32,611 bases of DNA from the IMG/VR virus record IMGVR_UViG_3300001593_000009, positions 1 to 32,611 of that record; one strand, given 5' to 3'. This DNA is from a virus. Position 1 is the first letter of the stretch. Each line of letters opens with the position of its first letter. The translations under genes and the position numbers were made by a program. The notes beneath the pieces are model-generated. The model searched no databases, was not told the origin of the DNA, and saw only the letters and a list, made by a program, of their open reading frames with translations. Positions 1 through 7,210 of the stretch are shown here, in pieces.

Positions 1-2
1 TC

Positions 3-80
3 TATTGGGATGATGGCGTGTACACACAAGTATTAAATCCTTTACAGTTACATAAAATCAATGCGCAAGCGAAAGAGTGA
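3..80 (+). CDS. C-terminal end of an upstream gene (partial)
   Basis: An open frame enters from the left edge and ends at TGA 78-80, giving 25 residues ending NAQAKE. The next gene begins inside it at 61, a 20-nt overlap typical of this tightly packed region. There is too little protein to assign a function. It is called coding because the other two forward frames stop early and because the overlap pattern matches the following genes. Confidence 0.45.
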   Translation, partial: YWDDGVYTQVLNPLQLHKINAQAKE

Positions 81-237
81 CCATATAGTCATGCACGATA
101 AAGGAGCGAAGTGCTTGCATTGTGGAAGATATTTGGAGATACCACTACCCATTGAAATATCCGTATTCGTAGCTATGAGTAGAGCCTTTGTAAAATCCCA
201 TGTAAATTGTAAAAAGCCATGTTCGACGACTACATAG
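61..237 (+). CDS. small Cys-rich zinc-finger-like protein (58 aa)
   Basis: A 58-residue protein. It has a CLHCG knuckle at residues 18-22 and a second Cys pair, CKKPC, at residues 50-54, which together could bind one zinc ion. The middle (about residues 27-47) is hydrophobic or helical. It overlaps the previous gene by 20 nt and the next by 19 nt, as expected in a translationally coupled phage operon. Small proteins with this HCG...H..C pattern are recurrent in Bacteroidota phages, but I know of no proven function. The position upstream of other zinc-ribbon and DNA-associated genes suggests a nucleic-acid-related role, which is inference. Confidence 0.6.
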   Translation: MRKRKSDHIVMHDKGAKCLHCGRYLEIPLPIEISVFVAMSRAFVKSHVNCKKPCSTTT

Positions 238-512
238 AAGATTATGATCAATCTTGCCCTAAGTGCAATCATTTTCCTCTTAGGATGAAAGACTGCGATA
301 GAATTGGTTGTGAAGATGGATATTGCGACGAATATGAAGATGATCCAATTAACTTTTATCCCGGCGAAGAATATACAGAATGCCCGGAATGCAAAGGAAC
401 GGGATCGATTATTTGGTGTCCTAATTGTGGTGAGGAATTAAGCGGCCATAGGTTTCCAGAAGATGAGGAAGATAATTTTTACGATCCAAACCAGTTAAAA
501 TTACCTTTATGA
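219..512 (+). CDS. acidic multi-zinc-ribbon protein (97 aa)
   Basis: The protein has several CxxC-type knuckles: CPKC near residue 13, Cys residues around 26-36, CPECKGTG near 55 and CPNCG near 67. This recalls the Cys-rich zinc region of DnaJ-type proteins, but there is no J domain. It is strongly acidic between the knuckles and at the C terminus. The start at 219 overlaps the preceding gene, and the stop overlaps the next start (ATGA at 509-512). A zinc-binding scaffold or regulator is likely; the exact function is unknown. Confidence 0.65.
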   Translation: MFDDYIEDYDQSCPKCNHFPLRMKDCDRIGCEDGYCDEYEDDPINFYPGEEYTECPECKGTGSIIWCPNCGEELSGHRFPEDEEDNFYDPNQLKLPL

Positions 513-892
513 GCAAGCGTAAAATAATTGATACGAGCCAAGACGCATATCGATCATTGGACCCTGATAGCATAAGAGCAATGTATAGGAAAATAGCGGC
601 GGCATTGCAAGCATTGGGTCCATCTACATTTGAGGAAGTGGCCGCTTATCTGGATGAAAAGCCAGAGCGAATATGGAAGCGGCTTGACGAGTGCAGGAAG
701 ATTGGTTTATGCCACCGTCCTGGAGAGAAAAAAAAAATGATTAGCGGCAGATACGGATTCTTATGGAAAGCAGGAGACGGCCCTGATGTAATGGATCAAA
801 AGACCAAACTGAAAGAAACCAAATCAGTAGCCGATCATTCAAGGGCTATAAAGAAACTGGGTCAACCTATTAACCAAACTACTTTATTTTAG
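509..892 (+). CDS. winged-helix-like DNA-binding protein (127 aa)
   Basis: Residues about 18-85 read as a helix-turn-helix/winged-helix fold. A helix containing RKIAAALQALGPSTFEEVA is followed by a recognition-helix-like segment (EKPERIWKRLDECRKIGL) and a basic wing. The C-terminal third is polar and probably disordered. It is coupled to the upstream gene by an ATGA overlap and abuts the HNH gene. An A10 run at 728-737 lies inside the coding sequence (KKKM codons), with out-of-frame stops close behind it. Proteins of this kind are usually annotated as hypothetical or wHTH proteins in Bacteroidota phages; the target is unknown. Confidence 0.6.
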   Translation: MSKRKIIDTSQDAYRSLDPDSIRAMYRKIAAALQALGPSTFEEVAAYLDEKPERIWKRLDECRKIGLCHRPGEKKKMISGRYGFLWKAGDGPDVMDQKTKLKETKSVADHSRAIKKLGQPINQTTLF

Positions 893-1282
893 ATGCCAAT
901 TGATTATAAAAAGTACCCTCCGAATTGGAAAAGCGAGATTGTGCCTGCCGTGTTGCTTCGAGCCGAGAATAGATGCGAATGTTGCGGGCTCCAAAATCAT
1001 TCGTTTGTTTGGGCCATAAAATTGTGGGTTAAAGATGACAAGGGTAAGTATAAGCTAAGAAGCATCTGGTTCAGAGATATGAGAGACGCCGAGCGAGAGG
1101 CGACCATGTACACGGTTAGAAGGGTAAAAGTGGTTCTGACAATTAGCCATACGGACCATGACGAAACAAATCAGAATGTCCAGCTGGATCGACTTAAGGC
1201 CCTTTGCCAGATTTGCCATTTGAGATATGACGCAAACGAGAAATACCGTCGATCTACTGAAAAATGGGAGAAACTTTTTTGA
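893..1282 (+). CDS. HNH endonuclease-like protein (129 aa)
   Basis: This is an HNH/beta-beta-alpha metal nuclease fold. A first zinc pair is at C28 and C31 (RCECCG). The catalytic histidine region is HTDHDET at residues 86-92. A Lys/Leu-rich stretch is followed by CQICH at 105-109, which supplies the second zinc pair and the last His. The length suits a compact single-domain HNH protein. It starts directly after the previous stop. Unlike the homing-type enzymes later in the window, it has no extra NUMOD or HTH segment, so a role in phage DNA processing is as likely as mobility. Family call is fairly sure; role is inferred. Confidence 0.75.
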   Translation: MPIDYKKYPPNWKSEIVPAVLLRAENRCECCGLQNHSFVWAIKLWVKDDKGKYKLRSIWFRDMRDAEREATMYTVRRVKVVLTISHTDHDETNQNVQLDRLKALCQICHLRYDANEKYRRSTEKWEKLF

Positions 1283-1316
1283 CCCCCCTGTATAATAGAT
1301 AGCCGGGAAAAATATT

Positions 1317-1347
1317 TTTGGAGGTTTAAAAACATTTAGTAGCTTTA
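1317..1347 (+). promoter_or_regulatory. candidate Bacteroidota-type promoter for the replication block
   Basis: TTTG at 1317-1320 is followed after exactly 19 bp by TAGCTTTA at 1340-1347. This matches the Bacteroidota -33/-7 form TTTG-N19-21-TAnnTTTG, except that the last base is A. A transcript would start near 1352-1355 and run through the two hairpins before the gene at 1519. The same spacing and the same terminal A recur at 5541-5571. Confidence 0.45.
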
Positions 1348-1376
1348 ATCCGCTCAATAAAAATAATTTATAGGAT

Positions 1377-1454
1377 ATGAGAGAATTTAACTATTTTCGC
1401 ATTCAGCGGCCTGTCTCCGGGCGGTTTTTCATTTCCATAGAATATTTTTATTAA
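1377..1454 (+). CDS. possible leader peptide (25 aa)
   Basis: A 25-codon frame begins about 25 nt after the predicted transcription start and ends 7 nt before the second hairpin. It is unusually aromatic: 5 Phe and 3 Tyr in 25 residues, ending EYFY. Its middle codons (RPVSGRFF) lie within the first hairpin and its T-run. It could be an attenuation leader whose translation changes hairpin folding, or simply a chance frame across a terminator. No homology is claimed. Confidence 0.25.
   Translation: MREFNYFRIQRPVSGRFFISIEYFY
1409..1429 (+). terminator. hairpin 1 of the leader, with T-run
   Basis: GCCTG (1409-1413) pairs with CGGGC (1418-1422) through one G-T pair around a TCTC loop, followed by GGTTTTT. 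It is a weak intrinsic-terminator-like hairpin. It shares the heptamer CTCCGGG with hairpin 2. Confidence 0.45.
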
Positions 1455-1460
1455 GCAACT

Positions 1461-1490
1461 TCCTCCGGGTTCTCTCGGGGGATTTTTTTT
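1461..1490 (+). terminator. hairpin 2 of the leader, strong intrinsic terminator
   Basis: TCCTCCG (1461-1467) pairs with CGGGGGA (1476-1482), with one T-G pair and an 8-nt loop. It is followed directly by eight T residues (1483-1490). This is the best rightward intrinsic terminator in the window. It lies 28 bp upstream of the replication gene and downstream of the candidate promoter, so it may either end the upstream operon or act as an attenuator. Confidence 0.65.
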
Positions 1491-1518
1491 ATTCATATCC
1501 CTTTAAAAGGCTACTTAG

Positions 1519-2274
1519 ATGGCAAAAGACCCTGCTTTTTTATTTTACCCGAATGACTGGTTGGGGGGGACAAGGCACCTCAGCTTCGAGGCTAAGGGGG
1601 CATACATGGAATTATTGATTTTGCAGTTCAATATGGGGCCTTTTACGATGGATGACGCCAAGCATGTTTTGGGTTCTAATTGGGATAACCTGTGGGTTTC
1701 TCTGAAAAGGAAGTTTTCAACCGACGGCGACGAGGTTTTCTGGAATGTGAGACTAAAGGCTGAAATGGATAAAAGAAACAAACATTCAGAGCATCAACGA
1801 CTTAATGGAATAAAGGGTGGTAGACCAAAAGCCAACAAAAACCCAATCGAAACCCAAACTATAACCCAAACCGAACCCAAACAAAAGCCTTTAGAAAATG
1901 GAAATGAAAATACAGTAGTTAGGAATGAAGGAATATTGTGTCCGGAAATGGTAAAAATTTTCAAAGAGACCTACCCAAAATACCCGTCGGATCAGGAGGC
2001 CGACTATCCAGCCTGCCTGCAAATTGCCTACAAGATTGGCAAATCTAAGGATTGGAAGAAAGATGATGTCGTTAATGGCAAAATGCCGGATGTGCTGAAG
2101 ATTTGGCGGTTTATGGTTGAGTTTTCAGCGACAGATGACTGGTTTAGGACGAGGGCTATTTCTGACTTTAGCAAAGAATATCAGCGACTTGTGCAAAAGA
2201 TTACAAGTAAAAAACCAGAAAAGAGAGAAATTAAACCACAGGCGGATGCACCGCCGCTCAAACGAATAGGCTAA
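1519..2274 (+). CDS. DUF1376-like replication initiation protein (251 aa)
   Basis: The N-terminal ~80 residues show the DUF1376 pattern: FLFYPNDWLGGTRHLS, then a helix containing GAYMELLILQF, then the aromatic segment NLWVSLKRKF. The middle is a polar, Gln/Thr/Lys-rich linker (about residues 95-135). The C-terminal helical domain resembles the tail of phage replication initiators and helicase loaders. The following gene, which shares one base with the stop, is a DnaB-type helicase, a frequent partner. The likely role is origin recognition or helicase loading. Family assignment is good; the molecular role is inferred from context. Confidence 0.75.
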   Translation: MAKDPAFLFYPNDWLGGTRHLSFEAKGAYMELLILQFNMGPFTMDDAKHVLGSNWDNLWVSLKRKFSTDGDEVFWNVRLKAEMDKRNKHSEHQRLNGIKGGRPKANKNPIETQTITQTEPKQKPLENGNENTVVRNEGILCPEMVKIFKETYPKYPSDQEADYPACLQIAYKIGKSKDWKKDDVVNGKMPDVLKIWRFMVEFSATDDWFRTRAISDFSKEYQRLVQKITSKKPEKREIKPQADAPPLKRIG

Positions 2275-3683
2275 TGGAATTTGTAAAAAATGTTCACTAC
2301 TCGCACGACTTGGAAGCCGCTGTTTTGGGGGCTTCGATGCTGGAAAGTACTGCTTTTGGCCGTACGCATGGAATTATCCGGCAGGACACTTTCTATTCCG
2401 AAGCAAACAAAGTTGTTTACGGCGCTATCCATGATCTTTACGCCGCTGGGTTTCCCATCGACATTTTGACGGTTGTTGACAGGATTTTGAATGTTTGTAA
2501 GGTTAAAGAATTTGCGGCTGGAATGAATGTATCGTATTATGTTGTAGAATTAACGAAGGCTGTTGTGTCAACCGCTAATTTAGAATTTCATAGCCTGATC
2601 CTTAAACGCATGTGGATGGAGCGAGAAGTAATCAGGGTTACGCACGGCTCAGTCTCTCTTGATGGCGACGTTAACCAGCAACTTATACAGCTTCAATCTG
2701 CAATACGAGACATTAACGCTGGTGACTATACGAAGGATTGGTACGATATGAGCGAGTTAATGGTAGACCTTATCAAGCATCAGGAAGAAATTAAATCACA
2801 TCCTGACGCCGTTATCAAAACAGGTATTCGAGAACTTGATGAAAAGAATGGAGGGTTTATGCCGGGGAATGTGGTGGTTATAGGTGCTAGACCCGGAGTT
2901 GGAAAGTCGGCTTTCATGGGCCAGATGGCGATGAATATGGCTCGTAACAAAAAGAAAGTTGGAATTATCTCGCTTGAAATGAGCAACAATGAAATTGCAG
3001 GTCGTCTGGCGTCATTGGATAGTGGCGTAGATTTTCAACGGATATTCCGGAACTTGTTTCAGGACGAACGCGAACAGCAACGATTTTATGACAAGATCAG
3101 TAGCGAAACGATCAACTTGCCAATTTACGTATCTGATAGCACACGTGTTAACACGATTGACATTCGGGCAAAAGCAGACAAATTAAAAGCAAAACACGGG
3201 TTGGATATTTTGTTCATCGACTACCTTCAACTCATCAGCGCGGACCAACCGAAAAATAAAACACGGGAAAATATCATTTCAGAAATAAGCCGCTCAACAA
3301 AAATCATGGCTAAGGAGATGAAAATTCCCATCATCATCCTTTGCCAGTTAAATAGGGAATCCACTAAGCGTACAGGCGAAAGCCGATACCCTGTTTTGAG
3401 TGATCTTCGGGAATCAGGGGCAATTGAACAGGATGCCGATATTGTCATGTTCCTGCATAGGGATTGGATCGCCGGAATGGTTGAAGACGAAAAGGGCCAG
3501 TCTACTGAAAATCAGGCAGACCTTGTGGTAAGGAAATGGAGAAACGCGGAACCAAATTTACATGTCGCGTTAGGATTCGACGGGCCACGAATGAAATTTA
3601 TTTTCAATCCTCAAGGCGGAAACTGGAAACCAATATCAGCCATAAAGCCCGACGTTGATTATACATCCGATAATCCCTTTTAA
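2274..3683 (+). CDS. dnaB: replicative DnaB-family DNA helicase (469 aa)
   Basis: This is a ring helicase of the DnaB family that would unwind DNA 5' to 3' at the phage fork. The N-terminal helical domain (about 5-110) begins HDLEAAVLGASMLES, and a linker leads to a RecA-like core from about residue 175. Walker A is GARPGVGKS (204-212). Walker B is LFIDYLQLI with Asp316. Further DnaB motifs are CQLNRES, LSDLRESGAIEQDADIV and FLHRD. The length is normal for the family. It overlaps the DUF1376 gene by one base (TAATG), so the two are probably co-translated. No intein or insertion is visible. Confidence 0.93.
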   Translation: MEFVKNVHYSHDLEAAVLGASMLESTAFGRTHGIIRQDTFYSEANKVVYGAIHDLYAAGFPIDILTVVDRILNVCKVKEFAAGMNVSYYVVELTKAVVSTANLEFHSLILKRMWMEREVIRVTHGSVSLDGDVNQQLIQLQSAIRDINAGDYTKDWYDMSELMVDLIKHQEEIKSHPDAVIKTGIRELDEKNGGFMPGNVVVIGARPGVGKSAFMGQMAMNMARNKKKVGIISLEMSNNEIAGRLASLDSGVDFQRIFRNLFQDEREQQRFYDKISSETINLPIYVSDSTRVNTIDIRAKADKLKAKHGLDILFIDYLQLISADQPKNKTRENIISEISRSTKIMAKEMKIPIIILCQLNRESTKRTGESRYPVLSDLRESGAIEQDADIVMFLHRDWIAGMVEDEKGQSTENQADLVVRKWRNAEPNLHVALGFDGPRMKFIFNPQGGNWKPISAIKPDVDYTSDNPF

Positions 3684-3686
3684 ATC

Positions 3687-3974
3687 ATGGACCCTAAACC
3701 TAAATATCTTCTCAAGTACTGTGGAAAAGAAGTAGAGAGCAACGACTTAGAAAAGTTGGTGCAACTAGCTAGGAACCTTACGGACTACTACGAGATATTC
3801 AGGGTGTACAAAGCCAAGTTCGCACTCGAAAGAAAAAAGGCCATCTTTACCGCTGCCGAGATAGAAGATTCCGAACGCATGGAACAACGCGGTTACTCAC
3901 GGGATGTTATCGCAAGGAAAATGGGTGTATCCAGATTTTATATCGACAAAATACTTGACAAACATTTATGCTAA
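3687..3974 (+). CDS. small helix-turn-helix protein (95 aa)
   Basis: The C-terminal part (about residues 66-92) reads as a helix-turn-helix of the resolvase/sigma type: GYSRDVIARKMGVSRFYIDK. The first half is helical and charged. It lies 3 bp after the helicase stop in the same operon. It may be a small DNA-binding accessory or regulator of the replication block. No specific family is recognised. The following 56 bp (3975-4030) is A-rich, contains no obvious hairpin, and supplies an unstructured A/T-rich start region for the next gene. Confidence 0.6.
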   Translation: MDPKPKYLLKYCGKEVESNDLEKLVQLARNLTDYYEIFRVYKAKFALERKKAIFTAAEIEDSERMEQRGYSRDVIARKMGVSRFYIDKILDKHLC

Positions 3975-4030
3975 ACCATAACACTCCCACCACCCTTAAT
4001 AAATACTACAGAAATAATAAAAAATAAAAA

Positions 4031-5591: not shown

Positions 5592-5723
5592 ATGGTAAAA
5601 TTTACTGTAAGATTTAAGAAGGCCATGTACGAAAAGGTAAAGTCGTACTCCAAGCACGAAGGTATCACCTTTATGGCCGCACTTCGCCAAATAATTAACC
5701 AATTTTTCAAGGAACGGAAATGA
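5592..5723 (+). CDS. ribbon-helix-helix regulator (43 aa)
   Basis: The minimal Arc/MetJ/CopG-type fold. The beta-strand MVKFTVRF carries the DNA-contacting alternating residues. Helix A (KKAMYEKVKSYSKHEG) and helix B (TFMAALRQIINQFF) follow. At 43 residues it is about the smallest functional RHH size. The upstream in-frame ATG at 5535 would add 19 residues, but these are encoded by the promoter and its palindrome, so 5592 is preferred. It overlaps the glycosyltransferase gene by ATGA (5720-5723), so regulator and sugar operon are translationally coupled. It probably represses its own promoter. Confidence 0.72.
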   Translation: MVKFTVRFKKAMYEKVKSYSKHEGITFMAALRQIINQFFKERK

Positions 5724-7210
5724 AAGAACTACCTAGAGTAACCCTTATAGTTTGCGACACTGTATCCCCTGGGCGGGCTTTAGCTTCATTGAGGCGTAGT
5801 TTAACTCAGATCAAGCCTGCAAAAACCATTCTATTTACAAGTGTTGGATTAGCTATAAAGGACGACATAGAAGTGGTTAAAATACCTTCCTTGAAGTCGA
5901 AGGCCGATTACAGTACTTGGATTATCCGAGAATTGCACAAGCACATAGACACGGATTTTATTCTAATCAGCCAGTGGGATAGCTACGTTTTGGACGGCGA
6001 ACTTTGGGATGACGAATTCCTGTCTGTTGATTACATTGGGGCAAGTTGGTTGGAAACGGATGGATTTTCGGTGGGCAATGGTGGATTTTCGGGGCGTTCG
6101 CGTAGGCTTATGGAGGCGGTGGCCACTGATCCAATGATTGTATCCACCCACCCAGAGGATAACATGATTTGCAAGGTCTATAGGCCCTACCTAGAAGCCA
6201 AATATGGTTTTAAATGGGCCTCGCAAGAATTGGCTGATAGATTTTCGTTCGAATTGAGGGAGCCAACCCAACCCACATTCGGATTTCACTCTTTTTTTCA
6301 TCAACCTTTTAAGGAAACTATTGTCGTTCGAAGGCTCGCAAGTTTAGGAGACGTCGTGCAGACGGAAGGCATACTCCATTATTTCCATAAAAAAGGCTAC
6401 AGGGTTGTTTTAGAGACGTTGCCGCAATTTTTTAATCTATTTTTGTTCCATTACTTCAAAATATACCGACCGGAGGAAGTTGATCCCAAGCTATTGCGGG
6501 GGGCTAAATTTGTAGATTTGGATATGTCATATGAAAGCTCCCCTGAACAACTGCATTTAAAAAGTTATTTTGAAATGGCAGGAATCAATGATGTCGAAAT
6601 AAGGAACCCTAAATTGACTTTACAGTTTAATCCCAAACTACCAGAACATAAATTATTTAGAAAATATTGTGTTCTTCACAATGACCGCCGAGGGCAAGAG
6701 GGCCGAAATATTTACGGAGTAGACTGGGATGCGGTTGTTGCGCACTTGATAGAAAAAGGATACACCGTTGTTCAGATCGGTCATGGAAAACATACAACGC
6801 CTAAAGGTGCTGTCGAGATGCGCAACATGAACGAGCCTATGTTGATGCGGTTGATTGGCGGCGCTGATCTGTTTTTAGGTTGTGATTCCGGCCCTTCGAA
6901 TATAGCCTTGGCAATGGATACGCCAGCAATAATTTGGTTCGGCTCCGTTAATCCAGATTACATCATACCAGATAAAACGAACGTAACAGTTATTTCAAAC
7001 CACAATGCCGAAAAGCCAATTTGCAGACTACCCCATTGCTGGTCTAGTGCTATTTCTACGGAAGGGGTTGAATGTTTAGAAACGTTAGGTCAAGTAAGAA
7101 TGGTAACTAAAATGTTTCAGGGAACCGAATGCGTAGAAAATGAGCCAGTACCCCCCTGCGTACGCTTCACTACGCAACAAGTTATTGACGCCATAAACCA
7201 AACGATATGA
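5720..7210 (+). CDS. DUF5672-GT9 fusion glycosyltransferase (496 aa)
   Basis: Two domains are fused. Residues about 4-190 match DUF5672: RVTLIVCDTVSPGRAL, FILISQWDSYVLDGELWDDE, YIGASW, and VGNGGFSGRSRRLME. From about residue 200 to the end a GT9/heptosyltransferase-like domain follows. It opens with RRLASLGDVVQTEGILHYF and carries the nucleotide-sugar motif GCDSGPSNIALAMDTPAIIWFG near residues 385-407. GT9 enzymes transfer heptose-like sugars from nucleotide donors to LPS, and DUF5672 is found in sugar-transfer clusters. The overlapping neighbours are methyltransferases and a GT2. It may modify virion proteins, phage DNA or the host surface; the acceptor is unknown. Confidence 0.8.
   Translation: MKELPRVTLIVCDTVSPGRALASLRRSLTQIKPAKTILFTSVGLAIKDDIEVVKIPSLKSKADYSTWIIRELHKHIDTDFILISQWDSYVLDGELWDDEFLSVDYIGASWLETDGFSVGNGGFSGRSRRLMEAVATDPMIVSTHPEDNMICKVYRPYLEAKYGFKWASQELADRFSFELREPTQPTFGFHSFFHQPFKETIVVRRLASLGDVVQTEGILHYFHKKGYRVVLETLPQFFNLFLFHYFKIYRPEEVDPKLLRGAKFVDLDMSYESSPEQLHLKSYFEMAGINDVEIRNPKLTLQFNPKLPEHKLFRKYCVLHNDRRGQEGRNIYGVDWDAVVAHLIEKGYTVVQIGHGKHTTPKGAVEMRNMNEPMLMRLIGGADLFLGCDSGPSNIALAMDTPAIIWFGSVNPDYIIPDKTNVTVISNHNAEKPICRLPHCWSSAISTEGVECLETLGQVRMVTKMFQGTECVENEPVPPCVRFTTQQVIDAINQTI

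Follow-up and report, generated by a model that had tools for sequence, protein, structure and literature searches.

The immunity leader of phage P4 (CI RNA, with seqA, seqB, and seqC) belongs to the alpha replication operon, and in T4 the leader of gene 32, a phage replication gene, contains a pseudoknot. Plasmids pT181, ColE1, and IncB/IncI-alpha (repZ) are known for antisense-controlled rep attenuators and pseudoknots; the pseudoknots of T4 gene 32 and of IncB/IncI-alpha repZ block or license ribosome entry. The fluoride, preQ1, and ZTP riboswitches are pseudoknot riboswitches with terminators. The c4 antisense RNA of P1/P7-type phages is a regulatory RNA with complementary segments. It is named (RF01695) in a table of PMC2864571.

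The window analyzed here, meaning the whole stretch of DNA, is a virus record of 32,611 bases, in which the region from 1283 to 1518 lies between an HNH gene and a DUF1376-like gene (Table 1). The leader in this region directly precedes the first gene of the replication region, with 28 nt from the T-run to the DUF1376 ATG, and it may act as a switch for the onset of viral DNA replication. A first-pass annotation had described an attenuator-like leader before the replication genes, and this description is supported, as a number of related phages carry a promoter-hairpin-terminator leader exactly there. When compared with annotated phages, the first 4 kb of the window gave two short matches only, and the DUF1376 protein gave a single match, to one unannotated record. 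Farther downstream in the window, a phage gene at 5720-7210 has matches to DUF5672 and to glycosyltransferase family 9.

TABLE 1 Features of the leader and of the neighboring genes, in positions of the 32,611-base window
Feature	Position	Strand	Details	Basis
HNH gene	893-1282		Upstream of the leader	PHROG 1571
Candidate Bacteroidota-type promoter	1317-1347	+	TTTG 1317-1320, N19, TAGCTTTA 1340-1347	Pattern match
5' hairpin (rod)	1352-1456	+	AU-rich; arms 1352-1371 and 1437-1456, 20 nt, 85% complementary	Inverted repeat; MFE fold
25-codon frame	1377-1454	+	MREFNYFRIQRPVSGRFFISIEYFY, 8 Phe/Tyr; proposed leader peptide, probably not functional	
Loop-1 segment GAGAGAA	1379-1385	+	Candidate partner of the terminator loop	
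Small hairpin with T5	1409-1429	+	Hairpin 1409-1422, T5 1425-1429; inside the rod	
Terminator	1461-1490	+	Stem 1461-1482, T8 1483-1490; widened loop 1467-1476 includes TTCTCTC 1470-1476	
DUF1376-like primosomal/replication protein gene	1519-2274	+		PHROG 9327/3992 primosomal protein; match to Pfam DUF1376 under the curated cut-off (E 2e-4)
DnaB-like replicative helicase gene	2274-3683	+	Start overlaps the DUF1376-like gene	Pfam DnaB_C E 8.9e-73

The Bacteroidota promoter consensus is TTTG/TAnnTTTG, and the promoter-like sequence that had been called in the window is present as claimed, with TAGCTTTA fitting the second box at seven of eight positions (the last base is A instead of the usual G). 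A loose version of the pattern occurs three times per strand across the 32.6-kb window. The transcript would start near 1350, and the rod begins 4 nt past the end of TAGCTTTA. The leader RNA folds much better than its shuffles (z -5.1 and z -4.4, with 0/200 as good in either case). Its second hairpin, with T8, is predicted to stand alone as a strong terminator, and it heads the listed + strand sites of a hairpin plus T-run in the window when these are ordered by pairs plus G-C pairs; the number of terminator-like sites in positions 1 to 4000 is not above that in shuffles (4 versus a mean of 4.1). Both hairpins with T-runs that had been described are present, but in the MFE fold the T-run of the first is paired within the rod, so that the two are not independent terminators and the first is an unlikely terminator once the rod forms. 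An inverted repeat, GGATATGA/TCATATCC (1373-1380/1493-1500), joins the 5' part of the leader with the stretch before the DUF1376 ATG; as a long-range pairing it was rejected, being equalled in 501 of 5,000 shuffles. A second one, AGTAGCTTT/AAGGCTACT (1338-1346/1507-1515), runs from the 5' leader to the pre-ATG region and overlaps the promoter box, and AGTAGC/GCTACT is complementary between the promoter box and the pre-ATG stretch.

For comparison, relatives of the DUF1376 protein were taken from genome contigs and viral contigs, three of the four viral sets each being the best 80 of 434 to 573, and 322 upstream regions formed 131 clusters (12 loci without a start and 5 short loci were dropped). 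A plan recurs upstream of these genes, consisting of a promoter box, the segments A5, B5, A3, and B3, and the ATG, wherein A5/A3 and B5/B3 are complementary and interlocked. The scan for interlocked helices, which allows at most 12 nt between A3 and B3 and in its first form covered 140 distinct regions, found long helices in L023, L079, L138, L038, L071, L130, and L004 (scores of -40 to -52, 0/40 shuffles each). Scores of -38 or lower were reached by 9 of the 131 cluster representatives, versus 7 of 7,391 background windows from the same loci. Other loci have two hairpins with 7-nt complementary loops, the second usually a terminator, and a strict scan found this arrangement in 14 of the 131 representatives, the window included. 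Since the strict scan also gave 97 and 100 matches on the two strands of 612 kb elsewhere, any single match is weak evidence. Many DUF1376 upstream regions have neither the kissing nor the pseudoknot type.

A pattern scan of viral contigs for one loop type returned at least 120 stretches. At 77 of the 80 listed sites, the gene start lies 26 to 29 nt past the match, a spacing that is partly chosen, as the start codon was sought only 22 to 60 nt after the match and nearer in-frame ATGs exist. The genes after the listed sites are of several N-terminal types: ten downstream proteins compared with Pfam and PHROGs include DUF1376/primosomal, HTH_36 replication-initiation, DnaD-like, Lin1244_N, and DnaA-like replisome-organizer proteins as well as one DNA methyltransferase, and HNH-like N termini, named by eye, are also found downstream of leaders. 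Because the same leader type stands before several unlike genes, it travels independently of the coding sequence.

Covariance model R1, built from the 67-leader alignment A4, matches 42 of 43 virus records (40 once and two twice, in whole records of which many are fragments), a rate that is given by construction, since the 44 loci in these 43 records had been chosen as known or expected leader carriers. In both two-copy records (L092 and L340) the copies differ in their loop pairs, GTAGGAT and GTACGAG in one and GTAGGAT and GTGAGAT in the other. The second copies lie at L340:7440-7526 and L092:660-745, before an HNH-like gene (by eye) and a gene for an unknown protein, respectively. Model R1 matched none of 7 and none of 299 host genomes, the latter being the family of L176's genome (Flavobacterium), a result that shows little, as no positive control genome was included. 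Very uniform kissing leaders precede the MAKDPAFLFYP proteins of the L084 family (72 loci, 27 distinct leaders; L084:999-1095), and the 3' half of this leader resembles two Aggregatibacter/Haemophilus phages by DNA (41 nt, E 5e-4). Compared with annotated phages, one kissing leader had no match, and another had a 41-nt partial likeness in four records. On the data presented here, the existence of such leaders (kissing-loop or pseudoknot) as a class upstream of phage replication genes is solid.

Because a row entered A4 only if its loops matched perfectly over 7 nt, both stems were present, and the tail was T-rich, and because the structure was drawn on the same alignment, the percentages from A4 are inflated: 98.8% of cells are paired, 21 of 24 pairs have double changes, and double-change cells number 308, versus 88 in shuffles (0/500 as high). 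These 67 leaders are what remained of 75 picked rows once 8 had been dropped by hand (five minus-strand images, one cut coordinate, L224, and L363). Checks outside this kind of selection are a grouping called A6, the count of T-rich tails at pattern sites, and a set in which the loop letters were free to vary. In this free-loop set, the pattern admitted A or C at one loop position and, whatever stood there, G or T at the partner position, and all 44 distinct complete sites match (27 A-T, 17 C-G, 0 mismatched; one cut site excluded). HP1 is complete, with four pairs, in 42 of the 44 sites, and HP2, with six pairs, in 43; one site forms neither stem and is probably a chance match. A6 comprises 27 distinct leaders grouped by sequence likeness only. 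Here, three loop pairs are complementary in 27/27, double changes are found at 2 of 7 loop pairs, and there are 37 double-change cells versus 12.5 in shuffles; two further measures, pairs changed on both sides (323/500 as high) and further pair types (500/500), are not above shuffles. In all three collections G-U pairs are frequent and A-C mismatches rare (53 versus 0 in A4, 48 versus 0 in A6, and 30 versus 2 in the free-loop set), which indicates that selection acts on the sense RNA rather than on the DNA.

The promoter and the T-run have fixed places in these leaders. In A4, 65 of the 67 rows have a TAnnTT[TC]G box, and in 62 of these the box ends 4 to 6 nt ahead of the 5' hairpin; most of the A4 leaders had been fetched by a pattern asking for TTTG. 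The commonest class value is 4 nt. A6, which was not selected for a promoter, has TAnnTT[TC]G within 45 nt before HP1 in 27/27 leaders, versus 3.3% of 45-nt background tiles, and an exact TTTG 18 to 22 nt upstream in 0/27, so that a -33 element is unconfirmed there. In the A6 alignment, likewise unselected for this feature, each of the 27 rows has a T-run after HP2, and a T-rich tail is present at 76 of 79 kissing-type pattern sites (not deduplicated), versus 14% of control tiles. Among the 15 strongest pseudoknot leaders, the T-run is absent in six (L023, L071, L079, L138, L059, and L131) and weak in L039. Termination is thus not the whole story, and the common core is the pseudoknot rather than the terminator.

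For the class, the data show a promoter box, two hairpins whose loops are complementary, a place before replication genes, and selection acting on the sense RNA. Considering these features, we propose, with a probability of about 0.48, that the leader, including that of the window, may be a cis-acting kissing-loop RNA attenuator of the replication operon. In this model, the TAnnTTTG-type promoter would start an RNA in which HP1 forms immediately at the 5' end. The terminator hairpin, HP2, would emerge beside the start codon with an apical loop complementary to that of HP1, and the resulting contact, a kiss between the two loops or a true pseudoknot where the leader is of a longer version, would clamp HP2. 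Most transcripts would then terminate at the T-run that immediately precedes the start codon of the replication initiator, and whatever occupies or unfolds HP1 or its loop would allow the polymerase to pass. We infer that the contact favors termination rather than blocking it and that a trans factor exists. In the window, GAGAGAA and TTCTCTC would work as their counterparts in the class do.

While transcription attenuation is the likeliest mechanism, control of translation is its main rival. In that scenario, what the element (pseudoknot or kissing) controls would be translation or mRNA stability: placed a few to about 25 nt before the ATG, it would block or license ribosome entry, and termination would be secondary. 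The six leaders without a T-run, together with L039, speak for it, since they nevertheless keep the pseudoknot 15 to 26 nt before the ATG; the T-rich tails at nearly all pattern sites and in every A6 row speak against it, and we consider it unlikely, if well worth keeping in mind. Autogenous binding by the initiator is argued against, as one leader type precedes several unlike initiators. A DNA-level element, be it a replication origin, a recombination hairpin, or an operator with inverted 7-bp sites, would explain the place beside initiator genes and the two loops being inverted copies of one 7-mer, but it would not account for a promoter box and a T-run at fixed places, and the tolerance of G-U with the near absence of A-C points to the sense RNA; such an element is therefore very improbable. 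Somewhat better, but still improbable, is that the terminated leader itself acts in trans, counting genome copies or excluding a superinfecting relative without an antisense gene. With two mutually complementary loops, a leader RNA from one phage genome could kiss the nascent leader of a second genome; this would shut down the replication initiator, and the loop sequence would be the specificity code. The differing loop pairs in both two-leader records are the context for this idea.

Whether the proposed cis-acting attenuator extends to the window depends on its membership in the class, whose anatomy the window leader fits but from which it is divergent. The loop-1 segment GAGAGAA is a perfect 7-nt complement of the terminator loop TTCTCTC, a match equalled in just 23 of 5,000 upstream shuffles, and among short-loop terminators, those before DUF1376 have a match of at least 7 nt in 6 of 10 cases (counting the window), versus 17 of 269 elsewhere. 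These 17 controls are also an argument for the opposing view that the window leader is a promoter with an ordinary terminator and a chance 7-nt match, outside the kissing-loop class. This view, a serious possibility that we nonetheless put below even odds, draws further on the contact energy, which is unfavorable in the window (freeing both arms costs 14.9 kcal/mol, and the contact returns about 7.8); within the class, too, the plain MFE fold leaves both segments free in only a minority of rows (3 of 67 in A4, 11 of 27 in A6). Furthermore, model R1 leaves the window leader unmatched even with filters off (its three window matches lie elsewhere, E 6.4 or worse), and viral contig scans found no close relatives of this leader. 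The scan for interlocked helices gave z 0.1 for the window, with 17/40 shuffles as good. Among seven relatives in one scan, kissing hairpins are absent from the closest by DnaB (L043, 71%) and from L044, L046, and L049, and are present in the leaders of L045 (CTGGTCG/CGACCAG) and L048 (CCGGGAA/TTCCCGG, before an HNH gene); L461 (63%), the only new one of five records from a DnaB alignment, has one kissing match only, inside a coding frame. Against a chance match stand the rarity of the loop match in shuffles, the box-to-hairpin spacing of 4 nt, and a genomic position that is the same as in the class. We hold membership of the window in the kissing-loop/pseudoknot class to be probable but unproven. 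Two further observations concern these relatives: at L461:2921-2949, immediately ahead of the initiator gene, GAATGCCCGG...CCGGGCATTC makes up what looks like a perfect hairpin, which lacks a T-run, and a 25-nt block, GCTAAATCATTTYACATAATTRTAT, precedes the leader at L048:1508-1532 and in L045, the only two occurrences in an exact scan of viral contigs.

The first-pass annotation had offered a different switch, in which TCCGGG at 1416-1421 pairs with TCCGGG at 1464-1469 and translation of a leader peptide could be sensed. On paper the pairing does provide four G-C and two G-U pairs, but the fold forced to contain it reaches -22.0 kcal/mol, versus -47.6 kcal/mol for the MFE; being about 26 kcal/mol worse by RNA folding, it does not amount to a competing state. 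The 25-codon Phe/Tyr-rich frame exists as well. A closed ATG frame of this length arises in 143 of 3,000 shuffles and one that is also as rich in Phe/Tyr in 42, and frames of about 20 to 30 codons are found in four pseudoknot leaders (L023, L071, L038, and L039), all of which lends something to attenuation by sensing Phe/Tyr translation. The frame is, however, not conserved among relatives: an ATG frame of 8 or more codons is present in 21 of the 67 leaders of the kissing type, and L023 and L071, a close pair, differ by an indel that shifts the frame (sequences and alignment read by eye). Replication genes, moreover, are no amino acid operon. Related phages retain the terminator without the peptide or the TCCGGG pairing and conserve the loop-to-loop contact instead; the peptide-sensing mechanism therefore fails, and we regard it as the least credible of the readings considered here.

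Rfam 15 at gathering score gave no match in the window and 33 related loci, except for one tRNA in L345. Subthreshold matches to known Rfam RNAs look like chance and were rejected, the best known being the S15-Flavobacteria leader; at L038:2850-2916, the likeness to this ribosomal protein leader scores 25.1 bits against a cut-off of 46.5 and perhaps reflects only a shared promoter. In the literature, as covered by titles and abstract openings and for some queries by the top-ranked results, no description of such a leader was found. A leader RNA that is portable, covaries strongly, and stands upstream of several unlike replication initiators in phages from the environment would offer a general point of control over when such phages begin to replicate, and it would be a candidate for a new RNA family. 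The loop-loop contact with the terminator, if true, would be a regulatory device contained within one leader.

Each of the known systems shares part of this arrangement. As in the P4 immunity leader, RNA-RNA pairing within a replication-operon leader would control premature termination, but here the pairing joins two hairpin loops of a single leader, that of the terminator and one other. The c4 RNA is likewise a phage regulatory RNA with complementary segments, but no leader in the window or the 33 related loci matches RF01695 at the Rfam gathering score. In the plasmid rep attenuators and pseudoknots, loop-loop contacts also control replication initiation, whereas here the contact lies inside one RNA. 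With T4 gene 32, the shared feature is a leader pseudoknot ahead of a phage replication gene; the difference is that here the helices are much longer, a terminator is often present, and there is no tie to one protein family. Finally, just like in the fluoride, preQ1, and ZTP riboswitches, a pseudoknot adjoins a terminator, but here the topology is kept across families while most nucleotides are not, and a ligand pocket is not evident.
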